The translations under genes were made by a program, and so were the position numbers. Positions 9,907 to 31,692 of a stretch of DNA of 64,000 nt are shown here, one piece after another (the stretch's first letter is position 1; every line of letters starts with the position of its first letter). The notes below the pieces were generated by a model. It did no database searches. It was not told the DNA's origin and saw nothing but the letters and a program-made list of their open reading frames with translations. Source of the DNA: Solidesulfovibrio carbinolicus (lineage in GTDB: Bacteria; Desulfobacterota; Desulfovibrionia; Desulfovibrionales; Desulfovibrionaceae); contig NZ_CP026538.1 of the NCBI RefSeq assembly GCF_004135975.1, forward strand, positions 1,860,001 to 1,924,000. The letters are read 5' to 3'.

Positions 9907-9929
9907 GGCGTATTCCCGGCTATACGCCC
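9906..9929. terminator. Convergent hairpin between the MBL hydrolase and the LD-transpeptidase-like gene
   Basis: Arms GGGCGTAT / ATACGCCC surround an 8-nt loop, starting at the MBL stop codon, with no T-tract. It may act as a bidirectional 3'-end structure. Confidence 0.5.
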
Positions 9930-9947
9930 CAATAGAAGGGCGTGCGG

Positions 9948-13553: not shown

Positions 13554-14988
13554 CGCCGCCGCCGTGCCGGCCCGTCCCGGCGCCAAGCGCCTGCTAGTAC
13601 CCCTGGCCCCGGACGTCCGCGCCCGGCTCGACGCTTATCCCGACATGCTGCGAAAAGCCTTGCCGCTTCGCCCGGGCTTGGTGCGCGAACTGCCCAAAGT
13701 GGTGCGCGAACTGTCCCTGTCGCTGACCGCCGAGCGTGAAGGCGGCCCCCGGCCCGGGTATCTCAGCGACCCAAAGGTGCTGTCGGCCTATCTCTGGTAT
13801 TATCTGCCCTGGAATCTCGTACGCCTGACGCGCCTGCTACCCGGACTTGACCTCGACATCCCCGACGACGGGGTGGTCTGCGACTTGGGCAGCGGCCCTC
13901 TGACTTTCATCCAGGCCCTGTGGCTGTCGCGGCCCGATCTGCGCAAGCGGCGGCTGCGCATCACCTGCGTGGACCGCTCCAAGCGGGCCCTGGAGCTGGG
14001 GCTGGCCCTTTTTGCCGAGCTGGCCGGCTTCGACCCCACCCGCCCGGACGCGCCCTGGCGCATCCGCGTCACCCGGGGCGAATACTGGCAGGGGTTGACC
14101 GACGGGGCCGATCTGGTGGCCATGGTCAACGTGGCCAACGAGTTGGCCGGCAAGGTCCGCGAACCGCTGGACGAGCGCATGGAGCGGGTGGCCGCCCAAC
14201 TGTCCGAAAGCCTCGTGCCCGGCGGCCGGGTCCTGGTGGTCGAGCCCGGCACGCGCCTGGGCTGGCGCTGCCTGCTGGGCATGCGTCAGGCTTTTGTCGA
14301 GATGGACATGGATATTGCCGCGCCCTGTCCCCACCGTGAAGAGTGCGTGCTCTTGGCCGGGCGCACCCGGGCCTGGTGCCATTTCACCATGCCGCCGGCC
14401 GGCGCGCCCCGCTGGCTGACCGCGTTTTCCGAGCGGGCTGGCCTTGGCAAGGAGCGTCTGAGCCTGTCCTTCCTTCTGGCCCGTAAGGTCCGCCCCGCGC
14501 CCAGTGGCGGGGCGCGGGTGGTGTCCGGGGCCTTTTCCCTGGCCGACGTGCCGGGCAGCGCGGTTTACGGCTGCTCGGCTTCCGGGCTGCTTGTGCTGTG
14601 CTCCCCGGACCGCCGTCCGCCCGCCCCGGGAGACCTGCTGGCCGTGGACGTGCCGGCTGGCGCGCCGCTTGACGCAAAAAGCGGCGCGCCGCGCGTCATG
14701 CTCGCCCCGGACCCGTCCGGCCAACGGCCGGCGGAGCCAGGGGGCGCGCCCGGCCGCGACCTTGGCCGGGCGGACAAGGCGGCCCGCGGCCAGGACCGGC
14801 GCTCCGGTCCGCCCCAGGCCGGGGCCGGTTCCCGGGAGGACAAGGGCGGCAAGCGTCGTCCCCGGTCGGGCGGCGCGCCTGGAGCAACGCGCCAGGCTCC
14901 GGTGAAAAAGCCGTCGCGGCCGGCCACCAAGGGCCAATCCTCGGGATCGGGCAAACCGGCCCGGCCGCTTCGCTCGCGCCGGGACTAA
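13543..14988 (+). CDS. Rsm22-like SAM-dependent methyltransferase
   Basis: A 481-residue protein. After about 100 residues comes a Rossmann methyltransferase motif, VVCDLGSGPLTFIQALW, then ITCVDRSKRALELGL and GGRVLVVEPGTRLGWRCL. PCPHREECVL and the preceding layout resemble the Rsm22 / mitochondrial small-subunit methyltransferase-like family. The C-terminal ~100 residues are low-complexity and rich in Lys, Arg, Pro and Gly, and probably bind RNA. It starts at ATG 13543 within the RACE gene (ATGTCCCCTGA overlap), so the two are translationally coupled. Substrate unknown; rRNA is a guess from the family. Confidence 0.78.
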   Translation: MSPDAAAVPARPGAKRLLVPLAPDVRARLDAYPDMLRKALPLRPGLVRELPKVVRELSLSLTAEREGGPRPGYLSDPKVLSAYLWYYLPWNLVRLTRLLPGLDLDIPDDGVVCDLGSGPLTFIQALWLSRPDLRKRRLRITCVDRSKRALELGLALFAELAGFDPTRPDAPWRIRVTRGEYWQGLTDGADLVAMVNVANELAGKVREPLDERMERVAAQLSESLVPGGRVLVVEPGTRLGWRCLLGMRQAFVEMDMDIAAPCPHREECVLLAGRTRAWCHFTMPPAGAPRWLTAFSERAGLGKERLSLSFLLARKVRPAPSGGARVVSGAFSLADVPGSAVYGCSASGLLVLCSPDRRPPAPGDLLAVDVPAGAPLDAKSGAPRVMLAPDPSGQRPAEPGGAPGRDLGRADKAARGQDRRSGPPQAGAGSREDKGGKRRPRSGGAPGATRQAPVKKPSRPATKGQSSGSGKPARPLRSRRD

Positions 14989-15089
14989 AGGCCGCGACGG
15001 TTGTTGTCCAAGGCCGCGAAATACGTTAGAAGCGCCCATTCATTCCGCATGGCCGATCCCTTCGGCAAGCGTAGCAAAGGAGGTCCCGC

Positions 15090-15647
15090 GTGGAGGTGTC
15101 GCAAACCGGCATCCCGGGGCTTGTCGTGATCAAACCGAAAGTGTTCGGCGATCACCGGGGTTTTTTTCTGGAGACGTACAGCCGGGAGGCATACGCCAAG
15201 GCCGGTCTTAAGTATGATTTCGTGCAGGACAATCACGCCCGCTCAGGCCCCAAGGGCGTGCTGCGGGGCCTGCATTTCCAACTGCCGCCTGCCACCCAGG
15301 CCAAGCTCGTCTGGGTGACCCGGGGAGCGGTCTACGATGTCGTGGTCGATTTGCGGCAGGGATCGCCAACCTACAAAAAGTGGTACGGCATCGAGCTTTC
15401 CGCCGACAATTTCCTGCGGTTCATGGTGCCCCGAGGCTTTGCCCACGGCTACGTGACCCTGACCGAGGACGCCGAATTCATGTACAAGGTCGACGCCCCT
15501 TACGCGCCCGACCTGGATGCCGGCATCGCCTGGGACGACCCGGACATCGGCATCACCTGGCCGGTCACCGATCCTGTGCTGTCCGGGAAGGACGCGGTCC
15601 AGCCGCGCCTGTCCGCCGTGGGTTCGCCGTTTGTCTACGAGCCCTAG
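15090..15647 (+). CDS. rfbC: dTDP-4-dehydrorhamnose 3,5-epimerase
   Basis: A 185-residue RmlC-type cupin with FGDHRGFFLETY, the catalytic-region sequence GVLRGLHFQ and FVPRGFAHGY-like MVPRGFAHGY. It epimerises dTDP-4-keto-6-deoxyglucose on the way to dTDP-L-rhamnose. It uses a GTG start at 15090 with AAAGGAGGT 5 nt upstream. The other dTDP-rhamnose genes (rfbA, B, D) are not in the window; manC follows on the same strand after 119 bp, consistent with O-antigen or capsule precursor supply. Confidence 0.95.
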   Translation: MEVSQTGIPGLVVIKPKVFGDHRGFFLETYSREAYAKAGLKYDFVQDNHARSGPKGVLRGLHFQLPPATQAKLVWVTRGAVYDVVVDLRQGSPTYKKWYGIELSADNFLRFMVPRGFAHGYVTLTEDAEFMYKVDAPYAPDLDAGIAWDDPDIGITWPVTDPVLSGKDAVQPRLSAVGSPFVYEP

Positions 15648-18017: not shown

Positions 18018-20168
18018 ATGGGACTTGATCGCAGAGCTTTCCTCGGTCTTGTGGCGGGTGGTACCGTTGGCGCCATGTTCACCCCCATTCCGTGGAAATT
18101 GATTGACGACGCTTCTATCTGGACCCAGAACTGGCCGTGGATCCCCCGGGTTCCCAAGGGCCAGATCGATTATGTGGCCACCACCAGCAAGCTGTGCCCG
18201 GCTGGCGAAGGCCTTAAGATCATGCGCGTGGCCGGCAATCCGATCCTGGCCGGCGGCAACCCTTCGCATCCGTTGTCCTGCGGCGGCGTCTCCGCCCTGG
18301 CCCGGTCCGAAGTCTACATGCTCTACAGCCCGGCCCGCATCAAATCGCCCATGAAGCGCAACGGCAAGACCTTTGCCCCCATCACCTGGGAGCAGGCCCT
18401 TGTCGAGATGGCCGAGAAACTCGGCGCGGCCAAGGGCGCGGTGGCCTCCATCTCCGGCGACAACACCGGCACCATCAATGAAGTCCTGACCGCCCTGACG
18501 GCCAAGCTCGGCAGCGCCGGCAGCTTCATGATGCCTTCCGAAGCCACCACCGCCGCCAAGGCCATGAAGCTCATGGGAGCCCAGGGCCAGGCCGGCTACG
18601 ACTTCGAAAACGCCGACACCGTCCTGGTTCTTGGCGCGGACATCTTCGAGACCTGGGGCACCTCCTCCAGGAACCGCAAGGCCTTCGGCGCCAGCCGCCC
18701 GGCCGGGGACAAGCCCGCCAACACCTACGTCTACGTCGGCCCCAGCCGCAACAACACCGCCGCCGTGTGCGACCAGTGGGTTCCGGCCGCCGCCGCCGAT
18801 CTCGGCGTGGTGGCCCTGGGCATCGCCTGGCATCTGCTCAAGGCCGGCGCGACCAGCAACGCTCCCGGGTTCGACACCTTCAAGGCCGTGGTCAACGGCG
18901 GCTTTGGTCCCGAAGACGTCAAGCGGGCCACGGGCGTTGCTCCCGAGACCCTGGCCGCCATCGCCAAGGCCCTGGCTTCGGCCAAGGCCCCCTTGGTGGT
19001 CACCGGCTCGCCCTTCGGACAGGGCCTGGGCGCGGCTCCGGTCATCGCCGGCATGTCGCTCAACATGCTCCTGGGCCGCATCAACAAGCCCGGCGGCGTT
19101 TACATGCTGCCGGAATTGCCCTCGGTGGTTCCGGGCGCGCTGACCCGCGCGGCCATGCTCGACGGCGATCTGCCCGCGTTTTTAAAGGGCGTGGAATCCG
19201 GCAAGACCCCGGCTCCCAAGGCCCTGCTCATCTATGACGCCAACCCGGTCTACGGCCTGCCCGAAGCGGCGACCATGGCCAAGGCCCTGGAAAAGATCCC
19301 GTTCAAGGTGAGCTTCTCCTCCTTCATGGACGAGACCGCCGCCCTGTGCGATCTGGTGCTGCCAAATTCGCTGCCGCTGGAGCGCTACGACGACGTGGCC
19401 ACGCCTTACGGCTCCGGCTTTTGCGTCTACAGTCTGGTGCGGCCCATCCAAAAGCCCATCTGCGACACCAAGACCACCGGCGACGTGCTGCTTGGCTTGG
19501 CTCGCAAGCTCTCCATTGACCTCAAGTTCGACAACTTCCAGCAGGTCATCAAGGAAAAAGTCGCCAGCCTGGCCAAGGTCAGCGGCGGTTTCGTGGCCAA
19601 GGACGTCATGCCCTGGCAGGTCGCGGCCGGTAAGCCCGCGCCCGCCCTGGTCGGCGGCGACCTCTGGAAGGCCCTGGAAGCCGGGTACGCCTGGACCATG
19701 GTCGGCCAGGCGCCCCAGACCGCCATGGGATTTGCCGCCGAAGTGGTGGCCAAGGCCGTCAAGGCCGGCAAGCCCGCCACGGCCACGGTGCTGGCTCCCT
19801 ACGCCCAGCTGCGCACCGGCACCCCGGTCACCGGCATGCCCTGCCAGGATCTGACCACGGTCCCGGACACCGAGCTTCTGGGCGACACCACCTTCATCCG
19901 CGTCAACAGCGAGACGGCCAAAACCCTGGGCCTCAAAAAAGGCCAGATGGTCAAACTGTCCGGCGCCGGCGTTGACTGCCAGGCCAAGGTCCACATCTTC
20001 GAGAGCGTCATGCCCGGCATGGTCAGCGCCCCCTTGGGCTTCGGCCATACCGCCTTCGACTACTACAGCCAGGGCAAGGGAGCCAACTACCTCTCGCTTG
20101 CCGCCGTGGTCGAGGAAGCAGGTTCGGGCCTGTCCATGTGGATCGCCCCGGAAGTCAAAATCGCCTAA
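18018..20168 (+). CDS. qrcB: Menaquinone reductase subunit QrcB (molybdopterin oxidoreductase-like)
   Basis: A 716-residue protein of the DMSO reductase superfamily with a twin-arginine-like leader (DRRAFLGLVAGGTVG). Where formate dehydrogenases have four cluster cysteines near the N-terminus, only the Cys of KLCPAGEG and LSCGG are visible. This agrees with the literature view that QrcB has lost the molybdenum cofactor and its cluster and is structural or electron-relaying. It is periplasmic. It starts 10 nt after qrcA with GGGGGAG upstream. Confidence 0.94.
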   Translation: MGLDRRAFLGLVAGGTVGAMFTPIPWKLIDDASIWTQNWPWIPRVPKGQIDYVATTSKLCPAGEGLKIMRVAGNPILAGGNPSHPLSCGGVSALARSEVYMLYSPARIKSPMKRNGKTFAPITWEQALVEMAEKLGAAKGAVASISGDNTGTINEVLTALTAKLGSAGSFMMPSEATTAAKAMKLMGAQGQAGYDFENADTVLVLGADIFETWGTSSRNRKAFGASRPAGDKPANTYVYVGPSRNNTAAVCDQWVPAAAADLGVVALGIAWHLLKAGATSNAPGFDTFKAVVNGGFGPEDVKRATGVAPETLAAIAKALASAKAPLVVTGSPFGQGLGAAPVIAGMSLNMLLGRINKPGGVYMLPELPSVVPGALTRAAMLDGDLPAFLKGVESGKTPAPKALLIYDANPVYGLPEAATMAKALEKIPFKVSFSSFMDETAALCDLVLPNSLPLERYDDVATPYGSGFCVYSLVRPIQKPICDTKTTGDVLLGLARKLSIDLKFDNFQQVIKEKVASLAKVSGGFVAKDVMPWQVAAGKPAPALVGGDLWKALEAGYAWTMVGQAPQTAMGFAAEVVAKAVKAGKPATATVLAPYAQLRTGTPVTGMPCQDLTTVPDTELLGDTTFIRVNSETAKTLGLKKGQMVKLSGAGVDCQAKVHIFESVMPGMVSAPLGFGHTAFDYYSQGKGANYLSLAAVVEEAGSGLSMWIAPEVKIA

Positions 20169-20189
20169 CGAAGGGAAAGGGAAGCCGTC

Positions 20190-20948
20190 ATGTCCGGACA
20201 GAAAATGGAATTCCCGATCACCTGGGGCATGGTGATCGATATTGACAAATGCACCGGCTGCGGAGCCTGCATGGCCTCCTGCCAGACCGAGAACAACGTC
20301 GAACCCCAGCGCGAAGCCTCCAACAAGCTGCGCGCCACGTCGTGGATGCTCGTCTACGAGCTCACCAACGACAAAGCCTTCCCCAATCACGACATTGCCT
20401 ATCTGCCCCGGCCCTGCCAGCAGTGCGGCAATCCGCCTTGCGTTTCCGTGTGCCCGGTCATCGCCACGGACAAAAACGAGAACGGCGGCATCGTGAGCCA
20501 GGTCTACCCCCGTTGCATCGGATGCCGGTATTGCGTGGCCGCCTGCCCCTACCACGTCCGCTACTTCGGCTGGTACGACCCCATTTGGCCGGAAGGCATG
20601 GAGAAGACCCTGTCTCCCATGACCTCGGTGCGCCCCCGCGGCGTGGTCGAGAAATGCACCTTCTGCCATCATCGCTGGACCCAGGCCAAGGACGCCGCCC
20701 GCGTCGCCGGCAAGGATCCCGATAACCTCGATGACGGGGCCTACGTCACCTCTTGCGTCCAGAATTGCCCTTCCGGGGCCCTCGCTTTCGGGGACATCAA
20801 AAACCCCAAGCACAAGGTGCACGAGCTGGTCAAAAGCCCCTACGCCTTCCGTCTGTTGGAGCGCCTGGGCACCGATACCCAGGTCTACTACATCAGCCGG
20901 CGGGAATGGGTCCGCAAGCTCGGCGACAACTACCTTAAAAGCGAGTAA
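20190..20948 (+). CDS. qrcC: Menaquinone reductase iron-sulfur subunit QrcC
   Basis: A 252-residue periplasmic ferredoxin-type subunit with four cluster motifs: CTGCGACMASC, CQQCGNPPCVSVCP, CIGCRYCVAACP and CTFCHHRW together with CVQNCPSG. It lies between QrcA/B and the membrane subunit and moves electrons toward menaquinone. No signal peptide of its own is seen, so it is probably exported with the Tat-dependent QrcB. Confidence 0.94.
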   Translation: MSGQKMEFPITWGMVIDIDKCTGCGACMASCQTENNVEPQREASNKLRATSWMLVYELTNDKAFPNHDIAYLPRPCQQCGNPPCVSVCPVIATDKNENGGIVSQVYPRCIGCRYCVAACPYHVRYFGWYDPIWPEGMEKTLSPMTSVRPRGVVEKCTFCHHRWTQAKDAARVAGKDPDNLDDGAYVTSCVQNCPSGALAFGDIKNPKHKVHELVKSPYAFRLLERLGTDTQVYYISRREWVRKLGDNYLKSE

Positions 20949-20962
20949 TCGGGGGGGATGCA

Positions 20963-22207
20963 ATGAGCTTTATTGAAATCGAAAAAACCTGGTACCCCGA
21001 GGGCGTCGAGCGTTGCTCCCTTGGGAAGTTCATGAAGTGGCTCAGCGTGTTGGGCGTCGTCGCCCTCTACGGCTTCTTCGCCATGATCGTGTGCTTCGCC
21101 TACGGTCTTGGCGTCACCGGCCTGGACAACTACTTTGGTTTCGGCCTGTGGATCACCTTCGATCTGGCCGTCATCGCCCTGGGCGCCGGAGCCTTTTTCA
21201 CCGGGCTTTTGCGTTACATCATCCGCATCGACGAACTCAAAAACATCATCAACCTGACCGTCATCAAGGGCTTTATTTGCTACTCCGGGGCCATGCTCAT
21301 CCTGTCCCTGGACGTCGGCCAGCCCATCCGGTCGTGGTTCGGCTACTGGCACCCCAACGTCCACTCGATGCTGACGGAAGTCATCTTCTGCATCACTTGC
21401 TACCTGATGGTGCTCATCATCGAGTACATTCCGCTCATCCTTGAGCAGAAGCAGATCAACAAGATCCCGTTCCTGCACAACCTGGCCCACCAGATGCACG
21501 TGGTCATGCCGCTTTTCGCCGGCATCGGCGCGTTCCTCTCGACCTTCCACCAGGGGTCGCTGGGCGGCATGTACGGCGTCATGTTCGCCCGTCCCTACGC
21601 TTTCCGCGACGGGTTTTTCATTTGGCCCTGGACGTTCTTCCTGTTCGTCCTGTCGGCCATCGCCTCCGGCCCGTGCATGACGGTGCTGATCTGCGGCTTC
21701 ATGGAAAAAATCACCGGCCGCAAGCTCACCACCTACCGGGTCAAGTCGCTCATGTGCAAGATCGGCGGCACCATGCTGCTTATCTACACGGTGTTTAAGT
21801 ACCTGGACACCTGGGCCTGGATCAACGACATCCTGCCCCGGGCCGGTCTGACCTTCGACCAGATGTTCTACGGCATGGTCTACGGCAAGTGGCTGTTCTT
21901 CTCCGAACTGGTGCTGTGCCTGATCGTCCCGGTCATTTGCCTGCTCACGCCTCTGCGCAAGAAGCCGTTCTTTATGTATTTGGGCGCCATCCTGGCCTGC
22001 ACGGGCGTGGTCATCAACCGCTACGTCTTCACTGTCCAGGCCCTGGCCCAGCCGGTGCTGCCGTTCACCAAGTGGGAGATCTACACCCCCAACTGGGCGG
22101 AATGGGCCACCTCGCTCATGGTCGTCGCCTACGGCTTCATCATCATGAGCCTGTCCTACCGCTATCTGCCGATCTTCCCCCAGGAAGTCGGGCTCAACAA
22201 GAAGTAG
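20963..22207 (+). CDS. qrcD: Menaquinone reductase integral membrane subunit QrcD (NrfD-like)
   Basis: A 414-residue polytopic NrfD/PsrC-family protein with about ten hydrophobic helices (for example VVALYGFFAMIVCFAYGLG). It contains the quinone site and couples menaquinone reduction to charge movement. It is the last gene of the operon: it starts 14 nt after qrcC and is followed by a strong terminator. The complete qrcABCD set links periplasmic hydrogen/formate oxidation to the quinone pool for sulfate reduction. Confidence 0.95.
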   Translation: MSFIEIEKTWYPEGVERCSLGKFMKWLSVLGVVALYGFFAMIVCFAYGLGVTGLDNYFGFGLWITFDLAVIALGAGAFFTGLLRYIIRIDELKNIINLTVIKGFICYSGAMLILSLDVGQPIRSWFGYWHPNVHSMLTEVIFCITCYLMVLIIEYIPLILEQKQINKIPFLHNLAHQMHVVMPLFAGIGAFLSTFHQGSLGGMYGVMFARPYAFRDGFFIWPWTFFLFVLSAIASGPCMTVLICGFMEKITGRKLTTYRVKSLMCKIGGTMLLIYTVFKYLDTWAWINDILPRAGLTFDQMFYGMVYGKWLFFSELVLCLIVPVICLLTPLRKKPFFMYLGAILACTGVVINRYVFTVQALAQPVLPFTKWEIYTPNWAEWATSLMVVAYGFIIMSLSYRYLPIFPQEVGLNKK

Positions 22208-22723: not shown

Positions 22724-25498
22724 TTAACCTTCCGCGGCGATGCGTCGCACCACCCAGGTTTTGACGATCTGGGCCAGGCACATGTAGGCGAAGATGACCA
22801 GGGCGATAAGCCCCCAGTAATGGGCCGGCGGCACGACCAGACCGAAAGAGGCGGCCAGGGGCGAGAAGGGCAGCCATACACCCACGGCGCAGATGGCCAG
22901 CGTCGTCATCCCTAGGGCCAGGCTGGAGCGGCTTTGCAGGAAGGGAATGCGGTCGGTGCGGATGACGTGGACAATGAGCGTCTGGGACAACAGCGATTCG
23001 ATGAACCAACCGGTCTGGAACAGCGCGGCGTTGTCCCAGGCGTGAAATACATGCAGCAAGATGAAGAACGTAACGTAGTCGAAGATGGAACTCACCGGGC
23101 CAAGCCAGACGATGTAGCGCCGAATATCGTCGATGCGCCAGCGCCTGGGGGCTTTGACAATGTCGTCGTCCACGTTGTCCGTGGGAATGGCCGTCTGGGA
23201 GAAGTCGTACATGAGGTTGTTGACCAGGATCTGAATAGGCAGCATGGGCAGGAAGGGCAAAAAGGCGCTGGCCCCGAGCACGCTGAACATGTTGCCGAAG
23301 TTGGAACTGGCCCCCATGCGGATGTATTTGGTGATGTTGAAGAAAATCTTGCGGCCCTCGACCACGCCGTGCTCCAGCACGTGCAGGCTTTTTTCCAGCA
23401 AAATGATGTCGGCCGACTCCTTGGCCACATCCACGGCCGAATCCACCGAAATGCCGACGTCGGCGGCCCGCAGGGCCGGGGCGTCGTTGATGCCGTCGCC
23501 CATGAAGCCGACCACGTGGCCCCGGGCGCGAAGCGCGGCCACGATGGCTTCCTTTTGCATGGGGTCGAGCTTGGCGAACACGTGGCAACTCTCCACGGCC
23601 TCGGACAGCTCGGTCGGGCTCATGGCCGCCACCATGTCGCCGGTGATGATGCGGTCCCCGGCGTCAAAACGCACTTCCCGGCAGATCTTGGCCGTGATGA
23701 CGGCATTGTCGCCGGTGACGATCTTGGGCTGGATGCCGTGGGCCAGCATGGTGGCCAGGGCGTCGGCCGCCGTGTCTTTGGGCGGATCAAGGAAGGCCAA
23801 GTACCCCATAAGCGTCAGGTCGGCTTCGTCGGCCACGCCAAAGTCGTGGCGCTGCCCGTCCACTTCCTTGTAAGCCAGGGCCACGACGCGAAAGCCGTCG
23901 TCGTTAAGATCATGCACCAGTTGCTGCATGGTTTCGCGATGCTCGGCATCAAGGGCGGACACGACACCGTTCTGGAGGCAGTCGCGGCTTTGGGCGAAGA
24001 CCTCTTCGGCCGCGCCCTTGCAGATGAGAATCGCCTTGCCGGTGCGCTTGTCCCGCACGATGACGCTCAAGCGGCGGCGCATGAAATCGAAGGGAATCTC
24101 GTCAAGAAGTTCGTAATGCTCGGGGTCGATGGCCGAGGTCGCGTCGTCGCCCGAACTGATGACGGCCAGATCCAGGGCGTTTCGCAGGCCCGTTTGCAGC
24201 TTGCTGTTGAGGTAGGCGTATTCCAGCACCGAGCAGTCTTCGCGGCCGGCGACGTCGAGGTACTTTTCCAGGATGATCTTGTCCTGGGTCAGCGTGCCGG
24301 TCTTGTCCGTGCACAGCACGTCGATGGCCCCGAAATTTTGGATGGCGTCCAGGCGCTTGACGATGACCTTGTGCTTGGACATGGCCAGCGCGCCCTTGGA
24401 CAGGCACACCGTCACCACCATGGGCAGCATTTCCGGGGTCAAGCCAACGGCCACGGCCAGGGCGAACATGAACGCGCCCATCCAGTCACCGCTGGTTGCG
24501 CCGTTGATGAGAAAGACAAAGGGCACCATGATCATCATGAAACGCAGCATGAGCATGGTGAAATTTTTGATGCCCTTGTCGAAATCTGTCTCCACCCGCT
24601 TCTGCGACAGCTTGGCCGCGATGCCGCCGAAGTAGGTGCGCGCCCCGGTGGCCATGACCAGGGCGGCGGCCGAACCGGACACCACGTTGGTGCCCATGAA
24701 GCACATGGCCGGATCGCCAAGGCCGGTCTCGCCCTCAGGGGCGGCCTCGCCGGCCGGGCGGACGGTCTTTTCCACGGGCAGGGCCTCGCCGGTCAACATG
24801 GCCTGATTGATGTGGAGATCCTTGGCCCGCACGATCTGGACGTCGGCCGGCACCATGTCGCCGGCGGCGAGCAGCACCATGTCGCCGGGGACCACCTGGG
24901 CCATGGGGATTTCCGTCTGCTGCCCGTCGCGCAGCACCGTGGCCGTGGTGTGGACCATCTTGCGCAGTTCCTCGGCGGCGGTGTCGGCCTTGGCTTCCTG
25001 GATGACTTTGAGCGTCACGCCAAGGACGGCCATGCCGATGATGACCACGGCTGAACGGACGTCGTCGGTGGCGTAGGAGATGGACCCCAGAACAAACAGC
25101 AAGAGCACCAGCGGGTTTTTGACCGCGTCGAGCAGGCGGGCGGCCAGGGTGATCCGCTTGGCGGCGGCGGCCTGGTTGGGGCCGTACTTGGCCAGCCGCT
25201 CCCGGGCTTCGGCTGTGGAAAGGCCCAGGGCCGCGGGTTGGGCGGCAGGGGCGGGTTCGGCGAGGCGCTCCCCGGACTCGGCCACCTCCCGCCACAAGGC
25301 GTTGAGATGCTGGAAGGCCTCGTAGGGTTCGATTTTGTGTTTGACGGCCAGGGCCGCAAACACATCGGCCTTCTGGACGAAGTGTTCCAGGGTTTTGACA
25401 AAGGCCGTGTCCGGGGCCAGGCGAAGGTCTTCCGGGGCGGGCGCGGCGGCGGGATGGGACGGGGACTGGCCGGTGGCGGGCGGCGTGGGCTGCGTCAT
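22724..25498 (-). CDS. mgtA: Magnesium-translocating P-type ATPase (MgtA/MgtB type)
   Basis: A 924-residue P3B-type ATPase that imports Mg2+ using ATP. Visible motifs: cation ATPase N-domain (about 65-135), TGEALPVEK (actuator), the phosphorylated Asp in CTDKTGTLTQD, TGDNAVITAK and MGDGINDAPALRAADVGISV, with six C-terminal helices. The ATG at 25498 follows GGAGGCC; the longer frame upstream adds 17 doubtful residues. It lies 193 bp downstream of the HprK-related kinase gene on the same strand and may share readthrough with the GAK cassette. Its own -10-like TATAAT lies upstream. Confidence 0.95.
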   Translation of the reverse strand: MTQPTPPATGQSPSHPAAAPAPEDLRLAPDTAFVKTLEHFVQKADVFAALAVKHKIEPYEAFQHLNALWREVAESGERLAEPAPAAQPAALGLSTAEARERLAKYGPNQAAAAKRITLAARLLDAVKNPLVLLLFVLGSISYATDDVRSAVVIIGMAVLGVTLKVIQEAKADTAAEELRKMVHTTATVLRDGQQTEIPMAQVVPGDMVLLAAGDMVPADVQIVRAKDLHINQAMLTGEALPVEKTVRPAGEAAPEGETGLGDPAMCFMGTNVVSGSAAALVMATGARTYFGGIAAKLSQKRVETDFDKGIKNFTMLMLRFMMIMVPFVFLINGATSGDWMGAFMFALAVAVGLTPEMLPMVVTVCLSKGALAMSKHKVIVKRLDAIQNFGAIDVLCTDKTGTLTQDKIILEKYLDVAGREDCSVLEYAYLNSKLQTGLRNALDLAVISSGDDATSAIDPEHYELLDEIPFDFMRRRLSVIVRDKRTGKAILICKGAAEEVFAQSRDCLQNGVVSALDAEHRETMQQLVHDLNDDGFRVVALAYKEVDGQRHDFGVADEADLTLMGYLAFLDPPKDTAADALATMLAHGIQPKIVTGDNAVITAKICREVRFDAGDRIITGDMVAAMSPTELSEAVESCHVFAKLDPMQKEAIVAALRARGHVVGFMGDGINDAPALRAADVGISVDSAVDVAKESADIILLEKSLHVLEHGVVEGRKIFFNITKYIRMGASSNFGNMFSVLGASAFLPFLPMLPIQILVNNLMYDFSQTAIPTDNVDDDIVKAPRRWRIDDIRRYIVWLGPVSSIFDYVTFFILLHVFHAWDNAALFQTGWFIESLLSQTLIVHVIRTDRIPFLQSRSSLALGMTTLAICAVGVWLPFSPLAASFGLVVPPAHYWGLIALVIFAYMCLAQIVKTWVVRRIAAEG

Positions 25499-25639
25499 GA
25501 GGCCTCCTTCGACTCGATGCGCGGGGGAGGCCGGCCGAAGCGCAGCCAAGGACTCCCCCGATGACGCATCAGGCCCTACGGGCCGGGGATTGCTTTTTCA
25601 TGACGGAAACGAGGCATACAAGCGCTTTACGCAATTGAC

Positions 25640-25691: not shown

Positions 25692-26774
25692 TTACCGGCT
25701 CACTGCGGCCAAAAAAGCCAGGCTTTCCTGGGCGGCCTTGTGGAAGTCCACGCCGCCGTCGATTTCCAGCACCGGCAGATCGCCCAGAAGTTCCAGATAG
25801 GCGTTCTGGCTGGCCATGGACGGCTCGGACGGGTCCTCGAATTCGTAGAAAAGCCCCACGTCCTTCATGAAGGCCGGCATGAGGTCGCGCCGGTCGGCCA
25901 GCCGCACCCGGGCGCCGGTCATGGGCGAGGCGTCGCGCTTCCAGCGCAGGATGACCAGCCCGGCCATGGGGCAGCCCAGCTTGAACCGGCCCGGGCCGAA
26001 GCATTCGTCGATAAAGGCGTCGTACTTGTGTTCCAGATCCCACAGTTCGGCCGTGGGCAGGGCTGAGAAACGAGCCCGGTCGGCGGCGTCCATGACCGGG
26101 GCAAGACTTGGGTTGTTGAGCACCGTGCCGGGGTTGACCCGGGGCATCTTGGCCACGCCGTGCATGACGAGGCCTTCGCCCTCGCGGGAAACCATGACCC
26201 GGTCGTTGCTGATGAACTCCGTGCCATGACGCATGATTTCCAAGGCCAGGGTCGATTTGCCGGCTCCGGAAAAACCGGCGATGACCAGGCCTTGGCCGCC
26301 TTGGGCGACGCCGGCGGCGTGAAACAGCAGCGCCCCGCGCTTCAGGCGCCATTCGATGAAGCGGTTGTTGATGAAGTTGACGATCTGGTTGTCGTTTTCC
26401 AGGCACGGCCCCACGGCGTAGTTTTTGCCCTGGCCGAAGAGGAAGACGAGGCCCGTGAGGAGTTTTTTGACTACCCGGCCGTCGGGGAGGTCCAGAGACG
26501 ATTCCTTGAGTTTGGTCTTGCCCGGTTCCCGGGGGTGGACGGCAAAGGGCAGGTCAAACTCCGGCGGCCCGGCCTCGATGGCCGTGACTTCGATGCGGTA
26601 GGAACCGCCGCCGCCGAGAAAGTCGCGGTAGTAGCGGCCGAGCTTTTCCGACAGGGCGTGGGAGTTGGTGGCCACAACCACGGTCACGTCGTCAAAGGTG
26701 ACTTCCAGGCCATGGGCCAGGGGCGCGGTTTCCAGGACGGGGGCCATAAGCCCGGCGATGGTGGGGCCGCTCAT
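25692..26774 (-). CDS. HprK-related kinase B (GAK cassette)
   Basis: A 360-residue protein whose C-terminal half resembles the HPr kinase P-loop fold: LLFHAAGVA, then Walker A GFSGAGKST at 167-175 and ISNDRVMV at 188-195. The N-terminal 140 residues are unique to this group. No HPr or PTS gene is nearby, so the phosphorylated target is unknown; the ATP-grasp or amphi-Trp partners are candidates. Its ATG overlaps the ATP-grasp stop (ATGA), with AAGGAG upstream. The kinase-B family assignment comes from memory of the GAK cassette, a grouping defined by co-occurrence. Confidence 0.85.
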   Translation of the reverse strand: MSGPTIAGLMAPVLETAPLAHGLEVTFDDVTVVVATNSHALSEKLGRYYRDFLGGGGSYRIEVTAIEAGPPEFDLPFAVHPREPGKTKLKESSLDLPDGRVVKKLLTGLVFLFGQGKNYAVGPCLENDNQIVNFINNRFIEWRLKRGALLFHAAGVAQGGQGLVIAGFSGAGKSTLALEIMRHGTEFISNDRVMVSREGEGLVMHGVAKMPRVNPGTVLNNPSLAPVMDAADRARFSALPTAELWDLEHKYDAFIDECFGPGRFKLGCPMAGLVILRWKRDASPMTGARVRLADRRDLMPAFMKDVGLFYEFEDPSEPSMASQNAYLELLGDLPVLEIDGGVDFHKAAQESLAFLAAVSR

Positions 26775-27655
26775 GCGATCTCCTTGAGGACATAGTCGGC
26801 GTAGGCCGCAGCCGCGTCCAGGCCGCAGGCGTCGAGGAGTCCCCGGAAGCCGCCGAAGGCCGAGACTTCGTAGATGGCCGCGCCGGATGGGGTTTCCACC
26901 ACGTCCACGCAGGTGAAGGCCATGCCCGGGAAGAGGTTTTGGGCCTTGCGGGCCAGTTCGATGATCTCGTCCGATGGATTATGGGGCACGTAGCGGCCGC
27001 CGGTGCGGGTGGTGGTGTCCCAGGAATTGCCGCTGCCCTGGCGGGCGTAGGTGGCCAGATACTGGCCGCCCAAAAACGACACCCCGAGATCAAGATGCCC
27101 GCCGGCGTGGGAGACCATCTGCTGGATGTACATGACCCGGTTGCCGGCGGCCTTGTAATCGGCGATCTCCTCATGCATTTCCGGGCCTTCCTCAATGACG
27201 GTCATGCCCCGGGCCTTGGAGCTGTACAGCGGCTTGAACACGGCCCGGCCGTAGTCCGAGACGGCGGCGGCGGCTTCGCTGACGTCCTCGGTGACGGTGG
27301 TCGGCGGCATGGGGATGCCGCCCCGGCGCAGCACGGCCGTGCCGCTTAAGCGATCAATAAGCCGAAACATGCTGTCCGGGTTGGAAAAGACCGGCAGCCC
27401 GCCGGAATGGAGAAAGCGCAGGATCTCCATGCGGTCCAAGGCGTCGGGGGTGTAGGACGGGGCGATCTTTTTGACGATGAGCCCATCGAGGCTGGTGAGG
27501 TCGGTGTCCTTATAAAAGGCCTTGCCCGTTTCCAGGTCCAGGCGCACTTCGGCCATGTCGATGCACAGGCGAAAGCCGGTGCGGGCTTCCAGGGCGTCCA
27601 GCAAACGCAGGGTGGACCAGCCGCCGGGGATGCCCACCACGCCAATCTTTTTCAT
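26771..27655 (-). CDS. GAK-system ATP-grasp enzyme (RimK-like)
   Basis: A 294-residue ATP-grasp protein. It starts MKKIGVVGIPGGWST; nucleotide-binding features are AVFKPLYSSKARGMTVI (139-154) and MYIQQMV, and the metal site near the C-terminus is VDVVETPSGAAIYEVSAFGGF. The usual ExN of RimK-like enzymes reads ExS here. Such enzymes ligate a carboxylate to an amine or thiol, often on a peptide or protein, but the substrate is unknown. The ATG at 27655 has GGAGA 5-6 nt upstream; a start at 27667 is possible. It begins 28 nt after the PhoU-kinase gene. Confidence 0.87.
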   Translation of the reverse strand: MKKIGVVGIPGGWSTLRLLDALEARTGFRLCIDMAEVRLDLETGKAFYKDTDLTSLDGLIVKKIAPSYTPDALDRMEILRFLHSGGLPVFSNPDSMFRLIDRLSGTAVLRRGGIPMPPTTVTEDVSEAAAAVSDYGRAVFKPLYSSKARGMTVIEEGPEMHEEIADYKAAGNRVMYIQQMVSHAGGHLDLGVSFLGGQYLATYARQGSGNSWDTTTRTGGRYVPHNPSDEIIELARKAQNLFPGMAFTCVDVVETPSGAAIYEVSAFGGFRGLLDACGLDAAAAYADYVLKEIA

Positions 27656-27683
27656 TTGTTTCTCCATGGTTGCAGGAAGGTTT

Positions 27684-29315
27684 TCAGTAGCACAGGGCGT
27701 CGACGGGCAGCTTGAAGTCCGCTGGGTCGCCGTCATGGGCGGCCACGCGCTGCAGCAAAAAGACGCCCCGGTGGAACATGAGCCGGGCGAAACGCTCGCT
27801 CAGTTCGAATCGGGTCGAAGTAATAAGTGACCGGCCAAGGCCAAGGGCCAGCCGGATGTCGAAGGTCGTGTCGCCATGCTTGGCGGCAAAAGCGGCGGCA
27901 AAGCGGCGCATCTCCAGGATGACGGCGGAAAGGACGCCGCGCCGGGCCTTGTCGAAGATGGGCAGGCGGAAGTTGGAGACCATGTACACCGAGACGTCCT
28001 GCACCAGGTCGGCGTCGGCCGATCGGTGCAGGTCGATGTAGTGGATGCGGTCCTCGGCCGGATCATAGAGGATGTTGTTGGTGTTGTAGTCGCCGTGGAT
28101 CAGCACGCTGTAGGGCGCGGCAAGGGTGCGCTCCACGGCCTCGGCGGCGTCGATGATTTCGTCCAGGGACGGCAAGGGAAAAGCGCCGATGGCCTTGCGC
28201 TTGACCCGAAAGCCCGGGTGCACGGTGAGCACCTCGGGCAGGCGGGCGCGCAACTGCTTGCTGTAGCCGATGGGGCGGGGGCCGGGGGTCAGGGTTTTTT
28301 CCCAGAGTTCCCCGGCGGTGCGGCACTGGGCGGCCACGGCCCGGGAGAGCAGCTTGCGGTCGCCGGAGAGCGACAGGTCCTGGATGGTCTGGCCGGGCAA
28401 GAGCTCGATGAGCATGGAGCTGGTCTTTTCCCCTTCGCGAAAGGCTTCCAGATGCGGAGCCAGGCCCGGCATGAGGGACTCCCAGCGGGCGAAGTTGGCG
28501 GCTTCCTGGCGCAGCTTGCCCGTGTCGCCGTCCTTGAAGATGACTTCCTTGTGGCAGTCGCCTTCGCCGCCGCGTTCCTGAATCCGGCCGATGCGGCAGC
28601 CTGAGCGGGTGCCCCAGATGGAGGCGAATTCCACATCGGACAGCGGGTTTTCGTGGCCGGAGGCGGCCAGAATGTCGTTTAAGGCGGTGAACTGGCGGAT
28701 TTTGAATTTGTCGCCGGTGATGGCGAAGATGGCGGCTTCGCCGACGTTGAGCAGGGCGTCGCCCATGCGTTCGAGATAGCGGAAGATAAACAGGGTGGTG
28801 AGCAGGTCGCCGGTGTTGAAGCCCGTGCGCAGTTCGTCGCGGATGCGGTCGAACTCCTGCTTGTAGAGCCGGTCGAGATGCAGCTCGCAGCGGCAGATTT
28901 TCAGCGCCGCGGCCATGTCGCGTTCCAGCACCGCCTTTGGCATCCAGCCCAGGGCATTCTGGATTTCCTGGAAAAACGGCTTGTAGTCGTAGCGCAGCAG
29001 GCATCTTGGATCGTCGTAGTGGCGCGTTTGGCGCACCACGTTGACGGCATGGTCGCCCACCCGTTCGAGGTTGCTGCCGATGATGTGAAACGCCCGGATG
29101 CGGGCCACTTCCGGGGCGGTGGGCCGGGTTTCGCCGTGCAGGGTGGCGAAGCAGGCGTTTTCGATCACGCTTTTCAAGTTGTCGATATAGTCGTCGCGGG
29201 CCTCGATCTTGGCGATGGCCTTTTCGTCACGATGCTTGAGGACTTCGATGGTGCCGGCGATCTGTCGCTCGATCTCCACGAGCAGGAATTTGAAATTGCG
29301 CTCGATCTCAAGCAT
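27684..29315 (-). CDS. PhoU domain fused to an APH-like kinase domain
   Basis: A 543-residue fusion. Residues 1-215 are a PhoU-type helical domain with both signature helices (SNLERVGDHAVNVV at 81-94; RYLERMGDALLNVG at 179-192), which bind metals in phosphate-signalling proteins. Residues about 240-540 resemble aminoglycoside/choline phosphotransferases, with catalytic HGDYNTNN at 407-414 and metal-binding IDLH at 427-430. It probably phosphorylates a small molecule under phosphate- or metal-linked control. Its start overlaps the amphi-Trp gene by 8 nt. I do not know this fusion as a described family. Confidence 0.85.
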   Translation of the reverse strand: MLEIERNFKFLLVEIERQIAGTIEVLKHRDEKAIAKIEARDDYIDNLKSVIENACFATLHGETRPTAPEVARIRAFHIIGSNLERVGDHAVNVVRQTRHYDDPRCLLRYDYKPFFQEIQNALGWMPKAVLERDMAAALKICRCELHLDRLYKQEFDRIRDELRTGFNTGDLLTTLFIFRYLERMGDALLNVGEAAIFAITGDKFKIRQFTALNDILAASGHENPLSDVEFASIWGTRSGCRIGRIQERGGEGDCHKEVIFKDGDTGKLRQEAANFARWESLMPGLAPHLEAFREGEKTSSMLIELLPGQTIQDLSLSGDRKLLSRAVAAQCRTAGELWEKTLTPGPRPIGYSKQLRARLPEVLTVHPGFRVKRKAIGAFPLPSLDEIIDAAEAVERTLAAPYSVLIHGDYNTNNILYDPAEDRIHYIDLHRSADADLVQDVSVYMVSNFRLPIFDKARRGVLSAVILEMRRFAAAFAAKHGDTTFDIRLALGLGRSLITSTRFELSERFARLMFHRGVFLLQRVAAHDGDPADFKLPVDALCY

Positions 29316-29583
29316 CGTCTTCGTCCCGGGCAGTGATGAGCAGTGGGGCGGAACATTCCTGTTCGCGCTCCTTCCAGCGGAAGGTCAGCTTGAGTTTGCG
29401 GTCCTCGCCCTTGGCCTTGCCTTCCACGGTGACGGCCACCAACCCCTTGGGGATAAGGCGCAGCACGTCCTCGCCCTGGGACAGGGTGATCTCTCCCGTG
29501 GCGAACCCGTCGCGCACGGCCTCCAGATAGGCGGCGATGACGTCGGGCTGCTGCAATCCGTCGTATTTGAAAAGCTTGTTCAC
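29308..29583 (-). CDS. Amphi-Trp domain protein (first gene of GAK cassette)
   Basis: A 91-residue protein consistent with the small amphi-Trp domain: an N-terminal helix rich in acidic residues (AAYLEAVRDGFATGEITL), then short amphipathic strands (LVAVTVEG, LKLTFRWKE) with the characteristic late Trp. It starts at GTG 29583, supported by AAGGAGG 6 nt upstream. The function of the domain is unknown; in the cassette it could be the carrier or target of the ATP-grasp and kinase enzymes. The 3' end overlaps the next start (ATGCTTGA). Confidence 0.8.
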   Translation of the reverse strand: MNKLFKYDGLQQPDVIAAYLEAVRDGFATGEITLSQGEDVLRLIPKGLVAVTVEGKAKGEDRKLKLTFRWKEREQECSAPLLITARDEDDA

Positions 29584-29840
29584 GAACTTCCTCCTTGGCG
29601 GCCCGGGGAGACGATCCGGGCGCGTCATTGGCTGTAGCACCCGATTATGAAGAAAAGGTGAAGCCCTGCTTGTTTTTTTGCACAACGGCCGGGTTTTTCC
29701 GCGCCGCGCGTTCGTCATGAGAGACTCACGCAACCTTCACCGGTTTACCCTGTACGCGGCCGGCCCGACTGGGCTAGGGTCGTGTCCGTGAAAGCGCATA
29801 CGGCGTTTGGCAGGCAACGCATGAAGACCACCAATTTTTC

Positions 29841-29865
29841 CTTAACAATACGTCGTATTGTTAAG
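29841..29865. promoter_or_regulatory. Perfect 25-bp palindrome, probable operator
   Basis: Arms CTTAACAATACG / CGTATTGTTAAG are separated by one T. It lies in the 315-bp divergent region, 34 bp before the Nif11-like ORF and about 260 bp before the GAK cassette. The rest of this region (29584-29898) shows no other gene. Confidence 0.6.
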
Positions 29866-29898
29866 GGACGCGACATTGGGTCAGGCACGGAGGAGGCC

Positions 29899-30081
29899 AT
29901 GAGTCAGGAAGCCATCGATCAATTTCTGGCCTGGTTGCAGGCCGACAAGGACCGGCTGCTCCTGGTCGGCGGCCTGCCCCTTGATGAACTGGCGGCCCAC
30001 GCCGCCGCCCACGGGTTTATTTTCACCGTGGAGGAACTCAAGGCCAGGCAGGCCCTGGTGCATCTGGTGGAAGGCACCTAG
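29899..30081 (+). CDS. Small Nif11-like protein
   Basis: A 60-residue ORF starting MSQEAIDQFLAWLQAD, with a C-terminal AHGFIFTVEELKARQ, which follows the Nif11 pattern (MSxExxxxFL...GFxFtxEEL). Nif11 domains serve as leader regions of some peptide natural products or as small free proteins; there is no core peptide or maturase here, so it is more likely a free small protein. GGAGG lies 3 nt before the ATG. It sits between the palindrome and the PiT transporter and may be in the transporter's transcript. Confidence 0.65.
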   Translation: MSQEAIDQFLAWLQADKDRLLLVGGLPLDELAAHAAAHGFIFTVEELKARQALVHLVEGT

Positions 30082-30240
30082 CGCCGCACTCGAAAAATAC
30101 GAAGGTGTCGTTGGGGAGTTCAATGTTTTTTCGCTTGTTGCCAGCAAAACGCCTGCTGTTTTTTTCGAGGATACGCCACGGGGAGGGGCGGCTTAACCGC
30201 TGCTCACGCCCGCTTTCTCCCACCCGCACCGGAGTACGGC

Positions 30241-31692
30241 ATGTTGCAGTCCCTTGCCAGCCTTGACGGCCATTCCCTGATCCTGTTGTGCCTGTCCCTG
30301 GGAATCGCCCTGGCGTTTGAATTCGTCAACGGTTTTCACGACACGGCCAACGCCGTGGCCACGGTGATCTACACCAAGGCGCTTCGGGCCACCACGGCTG
30401 TCGTCCTGTCGGGCATCTGCAATTTCCTCGGCGTGCTGCTTGGCGGCATCGCCGTGGCCTATTCCATCGTCCATCTGCTGCCGGTGGACCTGCTCGTGTC
30501 GGTCAACTCCAACCTCGGGTTGGCCATGGTCTTTTCCCTGCTCGTCTCGGCCATCCTGTGGAACTTCGGCACCTGGTACCTGGGGCTGCCGGCGTCGAGT
30601 TCCCACACGCTCATCGGCGCAATCCTGGGCGTGGGGCTGGCCAACGCCGTACGCGAAGGCCTGCCGGCCGGGGCCGGGGTCAACTGGCACAAGGCCGTCG
30701 AAGTCGGCTTGTCGCTATTCATCTCGCCCATCATCGGCTTTGTCCTGGCCGGCGGGCTGCTGCTTTTGCTGCAACGACTGCTCAAAAATCCGGCCCTGCA
30801 TCGGCCGCCTCAAGGCGACGCGCCGCCGCCGCCGGCCATGCGGGCGGCGCTGATCCTCTCGGGCCTGGGCGTAAGCCTGGCCCATGGCTCCAACGACGGC
30901 CAGAAGGGGGTGGGCCTTATCATGCTTATCCTCATCGGCATTCTGCCCGGGGTCTATTCCCTGGACGCCGACCTGTCGCCCGGCGAGACGGCCATGGTGC
31001 GCCAGGCGGCGGCCCGGTTCACCGACTATTTCGACGCCCACCGGCTGGAGATCGACAAGGCCTATGCCAATGGCTCCATCCGGGAGCTGCCCGAGAAATC
31101 TTCAGCCGTGAGCTGCGACGTGCGCGGGGCCGTGGCCGCCTCGGAAGACATCCAGCGCCAGCTGGCCCTGTATGATTCCATTGCCGCCATCCCGGCCGGG
31201 GAACGCTGGGAGCTGCGCACCGACATCCTGTGCCTGGACGACGCCGCCCGGATCATGCAGGGGCTTTCGGGCAGCGCCGCCGAGCGGGCCGAAATCGAGC
31301 AACTGCGCGAAACATTGCGCCGGCCTACAGAATACGCCCCGGATTGGGTCATCATGGCCGTGTCCCTGGCCCTTGGCGTGGGCACCATGGTCGGTTGGAA
31401 GCGCATCGTGGTCACCATCGGCGAGAAGATCGGCAAGACCAAGCTCAGCTATGCCCAGGGCGCGTCGGCCCAGATCGTGGCCATGGCCACCATCGGCCTG
31501 GCCGACGGCCTGGGGCTGCCGGTGTCCACCACCCATGTGCTGTCCTCGGGCGTGGCCGGGACCATGGCCGCCCACAAAAGCGGCCTGCAGATGCGCACCC
31601 TGCGCTCCATCGCCATGGCCTGGGTGTTCACCCTGCCGGCGGCCATGCTGCTGGGGGCCGGGTTCTTTTTCCTCTTCACGGCCTGGCTGTAG
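30241..31692 (+). CDS. Inorganic phosphate transporter, PiT family
   Basis: A 483-residue membrane transporter of the PiT/Pho-4 family. The two signature repeats are visible: FVNGFHDTANAVATVIYT near residue 28 and LSLAHGSNDGQKGVG near residue 217. A cytoplasmic insert of about 120 residues lies between the helical halves, as in PitA-like proteins. Uptake of metal-phosphate is driven by cations. Divergence from a cassette with a PhoU-domain protein suggests that the two act together in phosphate homeostasis. Confidence 0.93.
   Translation: MLQSLASLDGHSLILLCLSLGIALAFEFVNGFHDTANAVATVIYTKALRATTAVVLSGICNFLGVLLGGIAVAYSIVHLLPVDLLVSVNSNLGLAMVFSLLVSAILWNFGTWYLGLPASSSHTLIGAILGVGLANAVREGLPAGAGVNWHKAVEVGLSLFISPIIGFVLAGGLLLLLQRLLKNPALHRPPQGDAPPPPAMRAALILSGLGVSLAHGSNDGQKGVGLIMLILIGILPGVYSLDADLSPGETAMVRQAAARFTDYFDAHRLEIDKAYANGSIRELPEKSSAVSCDVRGAVAASEDIQRQLALYDSIAAIPAGERWELRTDILCLDDAARIMQGLSGSAAERAEIEQLRETLRRPTEYAPDWVIMAVSLALGVGTMVGWKRIVVTIGEKIGKTKLSYAQGASAQIVAMATIGLADGLGLPVSTTHVLSSGVAGTMAAHKSGLQMRTLRSIAMAWVFTLPAAMLLGAGFFFLFTAWL

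Follow-up and report, generated by a model that had tools for sequence, protein, structure and literature searches.

Two described systems lie closest to the locus studied here. The first is GAK, a gene cassette with no assigned job that is known from a series of NCBIfam protein families (TIGR04354-TIGR04358); no papers on the cassette or on its amphi-Trp protein were found in open-licence PMC. The second is the set of phosphate importer regulators made up of the PhoU, PitR, and NptA groups. In the portion of PMC13170248 that was searched, PhoU groups are each paired with a single importer family, and the terms fusion, fused, and ATP-grasp are absent. We analyzed a window of 64,000 nucleotides from Solidesulfovibrio carbinolicus (1.86-1.92 Mb of contig 1 in the 4.69-Mb genome), in which three GAK genes stand together with a gene for a PhoU domain fused to a kinase (PhoU-kinase). 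We found that the PhoU-kinase is a core gene of the GAK cassette and not a random neighbor. Our best explanation, to which we give a probability of about 0.5, is that GAK is a phosphate-linked, perhaps Mg2+-linked, covalent modification pathway of which the window holds one module.

The module consists of four minus-strand genes. The amphi-Trp protein (29308-29583, 91 residues) begins with a GTG at 29583, immediately preceded by AAGGAGG, and its gene overlaps by 8 nucleotides that of the PhoU-kinase (27684-29315), which carries a PhoU domain at about residues 1-217 (PF01895, 79 bits against a cut-off of 23.5) and an APH-type kinase domain at about residues 255-465 (PF01636, 34 bits against 23.2). 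A gap of 28 nucleotides leads to a RimK-type ATP-grasp enzyme (26771-27655, ATG start at 27655), and a 4-nucleotide overlap joins the latter to HprK-related kinase B (HprK-B, 25692-26774). The original prediction had described the same near-touching arrangement, with the same overlaps and gap, and its assignments of the ATP-grasp, HprK, and amphi-Trp proteins held in profile searches, where each protein exceeded the curated GAK cut-off (TIGR04356 grasp_GAK, 424.8 bits versus 300; TIGR04355 HprK_rel_B, 535.6 versus 200; TIGR04354, 57.1 versus 31). The ATP-grasp enzyme was 97-98% identical in Solidesulfovibrio magneticus genomes, the closest named relatives among the loci kept. What sets this genome apart from the described cassette is that the genes are spread over three loci, with PitA and MgtA neighbors, that the whole PhoU-kinase scored 80.6 bits with TIGR02135 and thus fell below the PhoU cut-off of 130.25, and that a further partner of 390 residues has no NCBIfam model. 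As in the PhoU, PitR, and NptA regulators, so far as these are covered by the portion of PMC13170248 searched, the window protein contains a PhoU domain, here beside a phosphate importer; it differs from them in that this domain is fused to a kinase. A tree that included neither PitR nor NptA set the PhoU parts of 25 PhoU-kinases apart from 9 stand-alone PhoU proteins found in the same taxonomic family.

Two samples were used to follow the gene neighborhood. The first comprised 101 neighborhoods, namely the window and 100 stretches from the same family of up to 20 kb each; from 108 places with the ATP-grasp gene, 92 loci carrying it were examined (family loci). The second comprised the best 80 of at least 519 confirmed relatives in a species-level genome collection (named loci), many of them metagenome bins, with titles that include Thermodesulfobacteriota, Zixibacteria, Phycisphaerae, Alpha- and Gammaproteobacteria, Nitrospirae, Nitrospinota, and Polyangia. 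In 87 of the 92 family loci, the PhoU-kinase and ATP-grasp genes shared a strand and were no more than 300 bp apart. Among the 80 named loci, 74 had the two genes equally close and 76 had the PhoU-kinase somewhere in the locus. Of the six named exceptions, L151 and L203 carry the PhoU-kinase elsewhere in the cluster, L145 and L202 start at the ATP-grasp gene, and L147 and L148 are without it. Across 199 family genomes, the two genes were both present in 96, one alone occurred in 3, and neither was present in 100, with three genomes that had only weak PhoU-like matches counted as absent (which reduced the PhoU-kinase set from 101 to 98). It is because of this near-constant adjacency and almost perfect co-occurrence with the ATP-grasp gene that the PhoU-kinase is placed in the GAK core, and the random-neighbor outcome by which the original prediction was to be refuted was not borne out for this gene. 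It was a more constant partner than CofD (55 of 80 named loci) or XXXCH (31 of 80), counts in which contig ends are allowed for only in part. HprK-B was present in 89 of the 92 family loci, and the APH catalytic motif HGDxNxNN was kept in 91 of 92 PhoU-kinase homologs.

The usual order of the complete cassette was XXXCH, the 390-residue protein, amphi-Trp, PhoU-kinase, ATP-grasp, HprK-B, and CofD, often with a second amphi-Trp gene. For amphi-Trp, the counts were 84 of the 92 family loci and 72 of the 80 named ones; for the 390-residue protein, they were 73 of 92 and 54 of 80. In S. carbinolicus the parts were divided among locus A, which is the window module, locus B (1.19 Mb), with XXXCH, the 390-residue protein, amphi-Trp, and a second PhoU-kinase, and locus C (2.23 Mb), with PstB, PhoU, a second HprK-B, and CofD. 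The CofD-like gene (G000:C1:2231961-2233064; 534 bits against a cut-off of 340) adjoins the second HprK-B, and XXXCH has two copies in the genome (100.5 and 95 bits, cut-off 40), one of them in locus B. The original prediction had noted that CofD-like and XXXCH members were missing, which is true of the window; since both are encoded at other loci of the same genome, they have not been lost. After its own family, the nearest model for the GAK CofD was YvcK (104-122 bits). The sequences show that the PhoU-kinase, the RimK-type ATP-grasp enzyme, and the HprK-type kinase form a constant core, which is joined by amphi-Trp in most copies and by predicted PHP-fold and YvcK-like CofD proteins in the majority of loci, and that phosphate genes repeatedly lie next to the cassette. 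What annotators had named as a cassette thereby gains two further core parts, the PhoU-kinase and a predicted PHP-fold phosphoesterase.

Some additional genes were seen around the cassette parts. Five amphi-Trp genes were present genome-wide, three of them off the GAK loci (G000:C1:2137140, 2346819, and 4197098). A ParA-like ATPase gene, identified by reading the sequence, was near GAK in L035, L051, L093, L105, L120, and L128, and some of these genes adjoin further amphi-Trp genes. L128 also encodes a protein of 822 residues (12996-15464) that has a PHP-like start, again by reading, and ends in a family 4 glycosyltransferase; the cluster around it recurred in 18 of the 101 neighborhoods.

Matches above cut-off were obtained in 24 of 395 phylum genomes. 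This patchy distribution, taken with the multi-enzyme make-up and the small companion proteins, would suit an anti-phage defence or conflict system; we consider such a role very improbable, in that PADLOC gave no match for any of 8 proteins and the cassette was present in all 14 sampled genomes of the window's genus.

The 390-residue partner was assigned as a predicted PHP-fold phosphoesterase through fold prediction. Two members had no NCBIfam match, no Pfam family above cut-off, and no match to the PHP family in Pfam at E up to 1, and a PDB sequence search with the protein returned nothing at E up to 1. Its AlphaFold model (predicted local distance difference test score, pLDDT, 90.9) aligned over 247 residues with 3o0f (Z 16.5, root-mean-square deviation 3.6), and with RNase AM 9etk (Z 15.9), 2yb1 (Z 15.3), and 3e0f (within the range 15.3-16.5). 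Further PHP domains followed in the ranking down to Z 9.1, and the rows below were at 6.0 or less. The motifs HWHPE, PTxHN, PHPExFWP, and MGDDxH were complete in 78 of 78 sequences. The partner shares with PHP phosphoesterases, RNase AM among them, the predicted fold and intact motifs, and differs from them by an extra helical stretch (model residues about 141-251) and by having no NCBIfam, Pfam, or PDB sequence match.

The PHP-fold protein was missing from 26 named loci, which comprised nine with other hydrolases, those of Solidesulfovibrio (where the PHP gene is elsewhere), short contigs, and others. The nine variants (L200, L202, L203, L205, L206, L207, L210, L215, and L219, out of 80) carried a histidine phosphatase and a metallophosphatase, and all were without the PHP-fold protein; an HP-Nudix-type protein was also present in five of them, and a Nudix enzyme in five. 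The hydrolase domains were established by Pfam in L215 and L200, and L215 has a CHAD protein nearby as well. The variant was found in none of the 101 family neighborhoods. That phosphate-bond hydrolases are exchanged while the kinase-ligase-kinase core stays constant suggests that a phosphorylated product is written and erased, and the replacement by histidine phosphatase, metallophosphatase, and Nudix enzymes suggests a nucleotide- or polyphosphate-like substrate.

The core enzymes were compared with their described relatives. The ATP-grasp profile matched RimK (4iwx) at E 1.8e-20 over positions 2-285 of 291, and the next NCBIfam model after its own family was MptN (118 bits); the cut-offs of the listed ligase models were not reached. 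The enzyme is thus nearest to the RimK and MptN glutamate ligases, and it matches RimK along nearly its full length. RimK-type ligases have a Mg-binding pair, E-x-N, near the C-terminus; the GAK enzyme differs from them in that EVS replaced EVN in 92 of 92 homologs, so that its chemistry may differ. In HprK-B, the P-loop region and the strand that follows, about 50-60 residues, aligned with solved HPr kinases (2qmh, E 8.4e-5). This match is short, and the protein is far under the cut-off of the HprK equivalog model (31.6 bits versus 240).

On this basis, the covalent modification could take two forms. In one, which takes up the original prediction, the RimK-like enzyme would aminoacylate amphi-Trp or XXXCH proteins and HprK-B would phosphorylate them, with or without phosphate as the trigger. 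RimK modifies a protein, and the nearly full-length RimK match, the retained HPr-kinase P-loop region, the presence of amphi-Trp in most loci, and the shared XXXCH C-terminus (CH-x-x-[YHF]-x in 31 of 31 aligned sequences) are all consistent with self-modification of this kind. However, amphi-Trp is nearly without invariant residues (one Trp in a set of 55 sequences, one Trp and one Pro in a set of 33), so that no conserved acceptor is visible; XXXCH was found in a minority of the named loci, some of which are cut by contig ends; and the replacement hydrolases point to a substrate of another kind. We regard this form as rather unlikely. In the other form, the cassette would make and break a small phosphorylated compound, serving as a messenger or resembling a cofactor and derived from a nucleotide or a UDP-sugar, that amphi-Trp binds. 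MptN, the nearest model of the ATP-grasp enzyme outside its own family, is a small-molecule ligase; the CofD-like partner resembles YvcK; the PHP partner has its nearest folds in the putative phosphoesterase 3o0f, RNase AM, and 2yb1, which was solved with AMP and phosphate; and other lineages carry the histidine phosphatase, metallophosphatase, Nudix, and HP-Nudix proteins. Set against this are the protein substrates of HprK relatives, which act on proteins, and the fact that the proposed chemistry matches no known pathway, which leaves a messenger possible and, on balance, doubtful. Taken together, the GAK enzymes are no less compatible with a small-molecule substrate than with a small protein that is ligated and phosphorylated. 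Inositol-pyrophosphate-type signalling, with an ATP-grasp kinase, a histidine phosphatase, and a Nudix enzyme, was considered and set aside, as the ATP-grasp enzyme is nearest to the RimK and MptN ligases.

The two small proteins were characterized further. The amphi-Trp AlphaFold model (pLDDT 87) was a helix with a four-stranded sheet; of two fold searches against the PDB, one gave no match at E 0.001 or better and the other a best Z of 2.6, and a PDB sequence search gave only weak matches, to a pair of designed proteins and to the baseplate protein of a phage. The C-terminal part of XXXCH (for example L035:6739-7302) weakly resembled cytochrome c' (E 0.067), with the first heme cysteine absent, and the N-terminal part weakly resembled amphi-Trp (55% probability). 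These weak likenesses may serve as leads and are not results.

Phosphate and Mg2+ genes adjoin the window module on both sides, as originally proposed. A PitA-type phosphate transporter gene (30241-31692, plus strand) lies divergent to it (PF01384, 302 bits against a cut-off of 33.7; NF033774 PitA, 514 bits, under the cut-off of 800), and the open reading frame of an MgtA-type Mg2+-translocating P-type ATPase (22724-25549, minus strand; TIGR01524, 1105 bits) starts 142 nucleotides downstream of HprK-B. PitA was found in 13 of the 92 family loci, 12 of them in the window's genus, and the Mg2+ ATPase in 15 of 92, 13 in the window's genus and two in one other genome. The neighborhood survey thus divided the partners that the original prediction had joined, the PhoU-kinase being constant and the PiT adjacency being mostly confined to one genus. 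In 20 control stretches searched with the same nine profiles (PstB not among them), there was one MgtA-type match, no PitA, and otherwise nothing. Separately, L055 contains a second ATP-grasp and HprK-B pair (9147-10028, G005:C125), without a PhoU-kinase, 152 nucleotides behind an MgtA-type gene, a Mg link outside the window's genus, and in L167 an MgtA gene lies 548 nucleotides behind CofD.

Phosphate genes recurred beside GAK in other genera. Five genomes, from four genera (g11, g15, g16, and g32), had PstB and a stand-alone PhoU, both above cut-off, directly ahead of the whole cassette, and in L058 PhoB-like and PnpS/PhoR-like genes (best matches below cut-offs) lie upstream of PstB-PhoU. 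PhnC, PhnD, and PhnE, all above cut-off, were just upstream of the cassette in L051. Outside the family, a stand-alone PhoU above cut-off was upstream of the cassette at 64 bp in L155, 2.3 kb in L166, and 3.1 kb in L162. Proximity within 10 kb was counted from 150 listed places each for CofD, PstB, and PiT, which makes the counts lower bounds, and the expected values presume 4-Mb genomes and uniform placement. PstB was near CofD in at least 12 genomes of 7 genera (about 0.65 places expected), and PiT, in a list without the PitA of the window's own genus, was near CofD in at least 10 genomes of 2 genera (about 0.68 expected). Nine of the latter genomes belong to genus g40 (such as G195:C38 and G126:C1), where the GAK CofD is 2.7-3.3 kb from PiT; the ATP-grasp gene was not found in g40 genomes in a profile search of phylum genomes. 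Because genomes from a single genus are not independent of one another, it is fairer to count genera, and phosphate-gene adjacency to GAK was found in about ten of these, well above chance.

The phosphate link could instead be an accident of gene order, with the PhoU-kinase serving GAK in some other way and the phosphate neighbors being coincidental or inherited. This would account for PitA and MgtA being stable in one genus only, for the many loci with no phosphate gene nearby among the places listed, and for related genomes having inherited the same neighbors. It is difficult to reconcile with PstB-PhoU, PiT, and PhnCDE adjoining GAK in about ten family genera against about 1.3 expected (PstB and PiT with CofD), or with PhoU standing beside the cassette again outside the family, and we find it improbable. 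The phosphate- and Mg-linked system of the original prediction was therefore partly supported and is now well motivated: phosphate genes (PstB-PhoU, PhnCDE, and other PiT genes) recur elsewhere, whereas the adjacency of PiT and MgtA themselves lies mostly in one genus.

Several observations weigh against a phosphate-linked modification pathway. The PiT and MgtA adjacency, being mainly that of one genus, is weak if taken alone, and neighbors within genera are shared by descent. The ATP-grasp gene was near PstB in at least 5 of 108 places and near PiT in at least 1 of 108, most loci having no phosphate transporter nearby, and among the 80 named loci only 4 had a stand-alone PhoU, profile-confirmed or of PhoU length, upstream. 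A PhoU-like domain is not necessarily a phosphate sensor. As the usual Mg-binding Asn is replaced by Ser, the activity of the ATP-grasp enzyme is uncertain, and in some loci, L179 and L183 among them, the stretch examined contains no PHP protein and none of the other hydrolases. Finally, 5 of the 92 family loci were without an adjacent PhoU-kinase; one (L067) is cut by a contig end, L055 is the second copy of the pair, and L073, L082, and L091 are from one genus, in which the PhoU-kinase is at another locus (L083).

A phosphate-linked modification pathway might work as follows. The PhoU half of the PhoU-kinase would dock on a phosphate importer, or read its state (PitA here, Pst elsewhere), and would control the APH-type kinase to which it is fused. 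A phosphorylated and/or amino-acylated product would be built by the ligase together with both kinases and removed by the PHP enzyme, or by the histidine phosphatase, metallophosphatase, or Nudix enzyme in other lineages, and amphi-Trp and XXXCH could be modified carriers or readers of the product. In Solidesulfovibrio, PitA would be the local output, and MgtA would adjust Mg2+ to phosphate. A PF01865 (PitR-family) match lies about 70 bp from the other PiT match of the genome, and a second PF01865 match is at 4.14 Mb; neither of these, the only two in the genome, is beside the window's PitA. As the window's PitA is without an adjacent PitR and the other PiT has one, the PhoU-kinase is a reasonable candidate for the accessory protein of the window's PitA. 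In a fuller and more tentative version, which we put a little short of even odds, GAK would be a widespread and hitherto undescribed phosphate signalling system in which a fourth, kinase-fused kind of PhoU accessory protein reads the importer, the kinase-ligase-kinase set writes a phosphorylated product on a small protein or metabolite, and hydrolases (PHP in most lineages) erase it, so that uptake of phosphate, and of Mg2+, is tuned without or beside PhoR-PhoB. If true, bacteria would have a new means of linking covalent signalling with the import of phosphate, alongside the PhoU, PitR, and NptA groups; in any case, a cassette of unassigned job gains phosphate as a concrete physiological lead.

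The intergenic region between amphi-Trp and PitA contains a perfect inverted repeat at 29840-29866, with 13-bp arms and a 1-bp spacer (CCTTAACAATACG-T-CGTATTGTTAAGG), as had been reported for this palindrome. Its 23-bp core occurred once in the window, where none is expected, and its 19-bp core had one exact site genome-wide and one more at 3 mismatches. As RNA it would fold into a hairpin of -15.9 kcal/mol (z -5.3). The arms differed in three close relatives yet remained complementary, and no equivalent repeat was present at the same place in 9 of 13 genus loci. A conserved operator was rejected on these grounds, and the repeat is more probably a hairpin, or a short mobile repeat, than a fixed operator. 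A small plus-strand open reading frame (29899-30081, 60 residues) in the interval from the palindrome to PitA encodes a Nif11-like protein, a longer version of which scored 21.8 bits with PF07862, just below the cut-off of 23.8; of the 13 genus loci, 12 had a homolog next to PitA. A terminator-like hairpin lies ahead of PitA at 30142-30158, and similar hairpins arise in shuffled sequence too. Elsewhere in the window, at 18018-22207, translations read directly suggested genes for an apparent molybdopterin oxidoreductase, an iron-sulfur subunit, and an NrfD-like membrane subunit.

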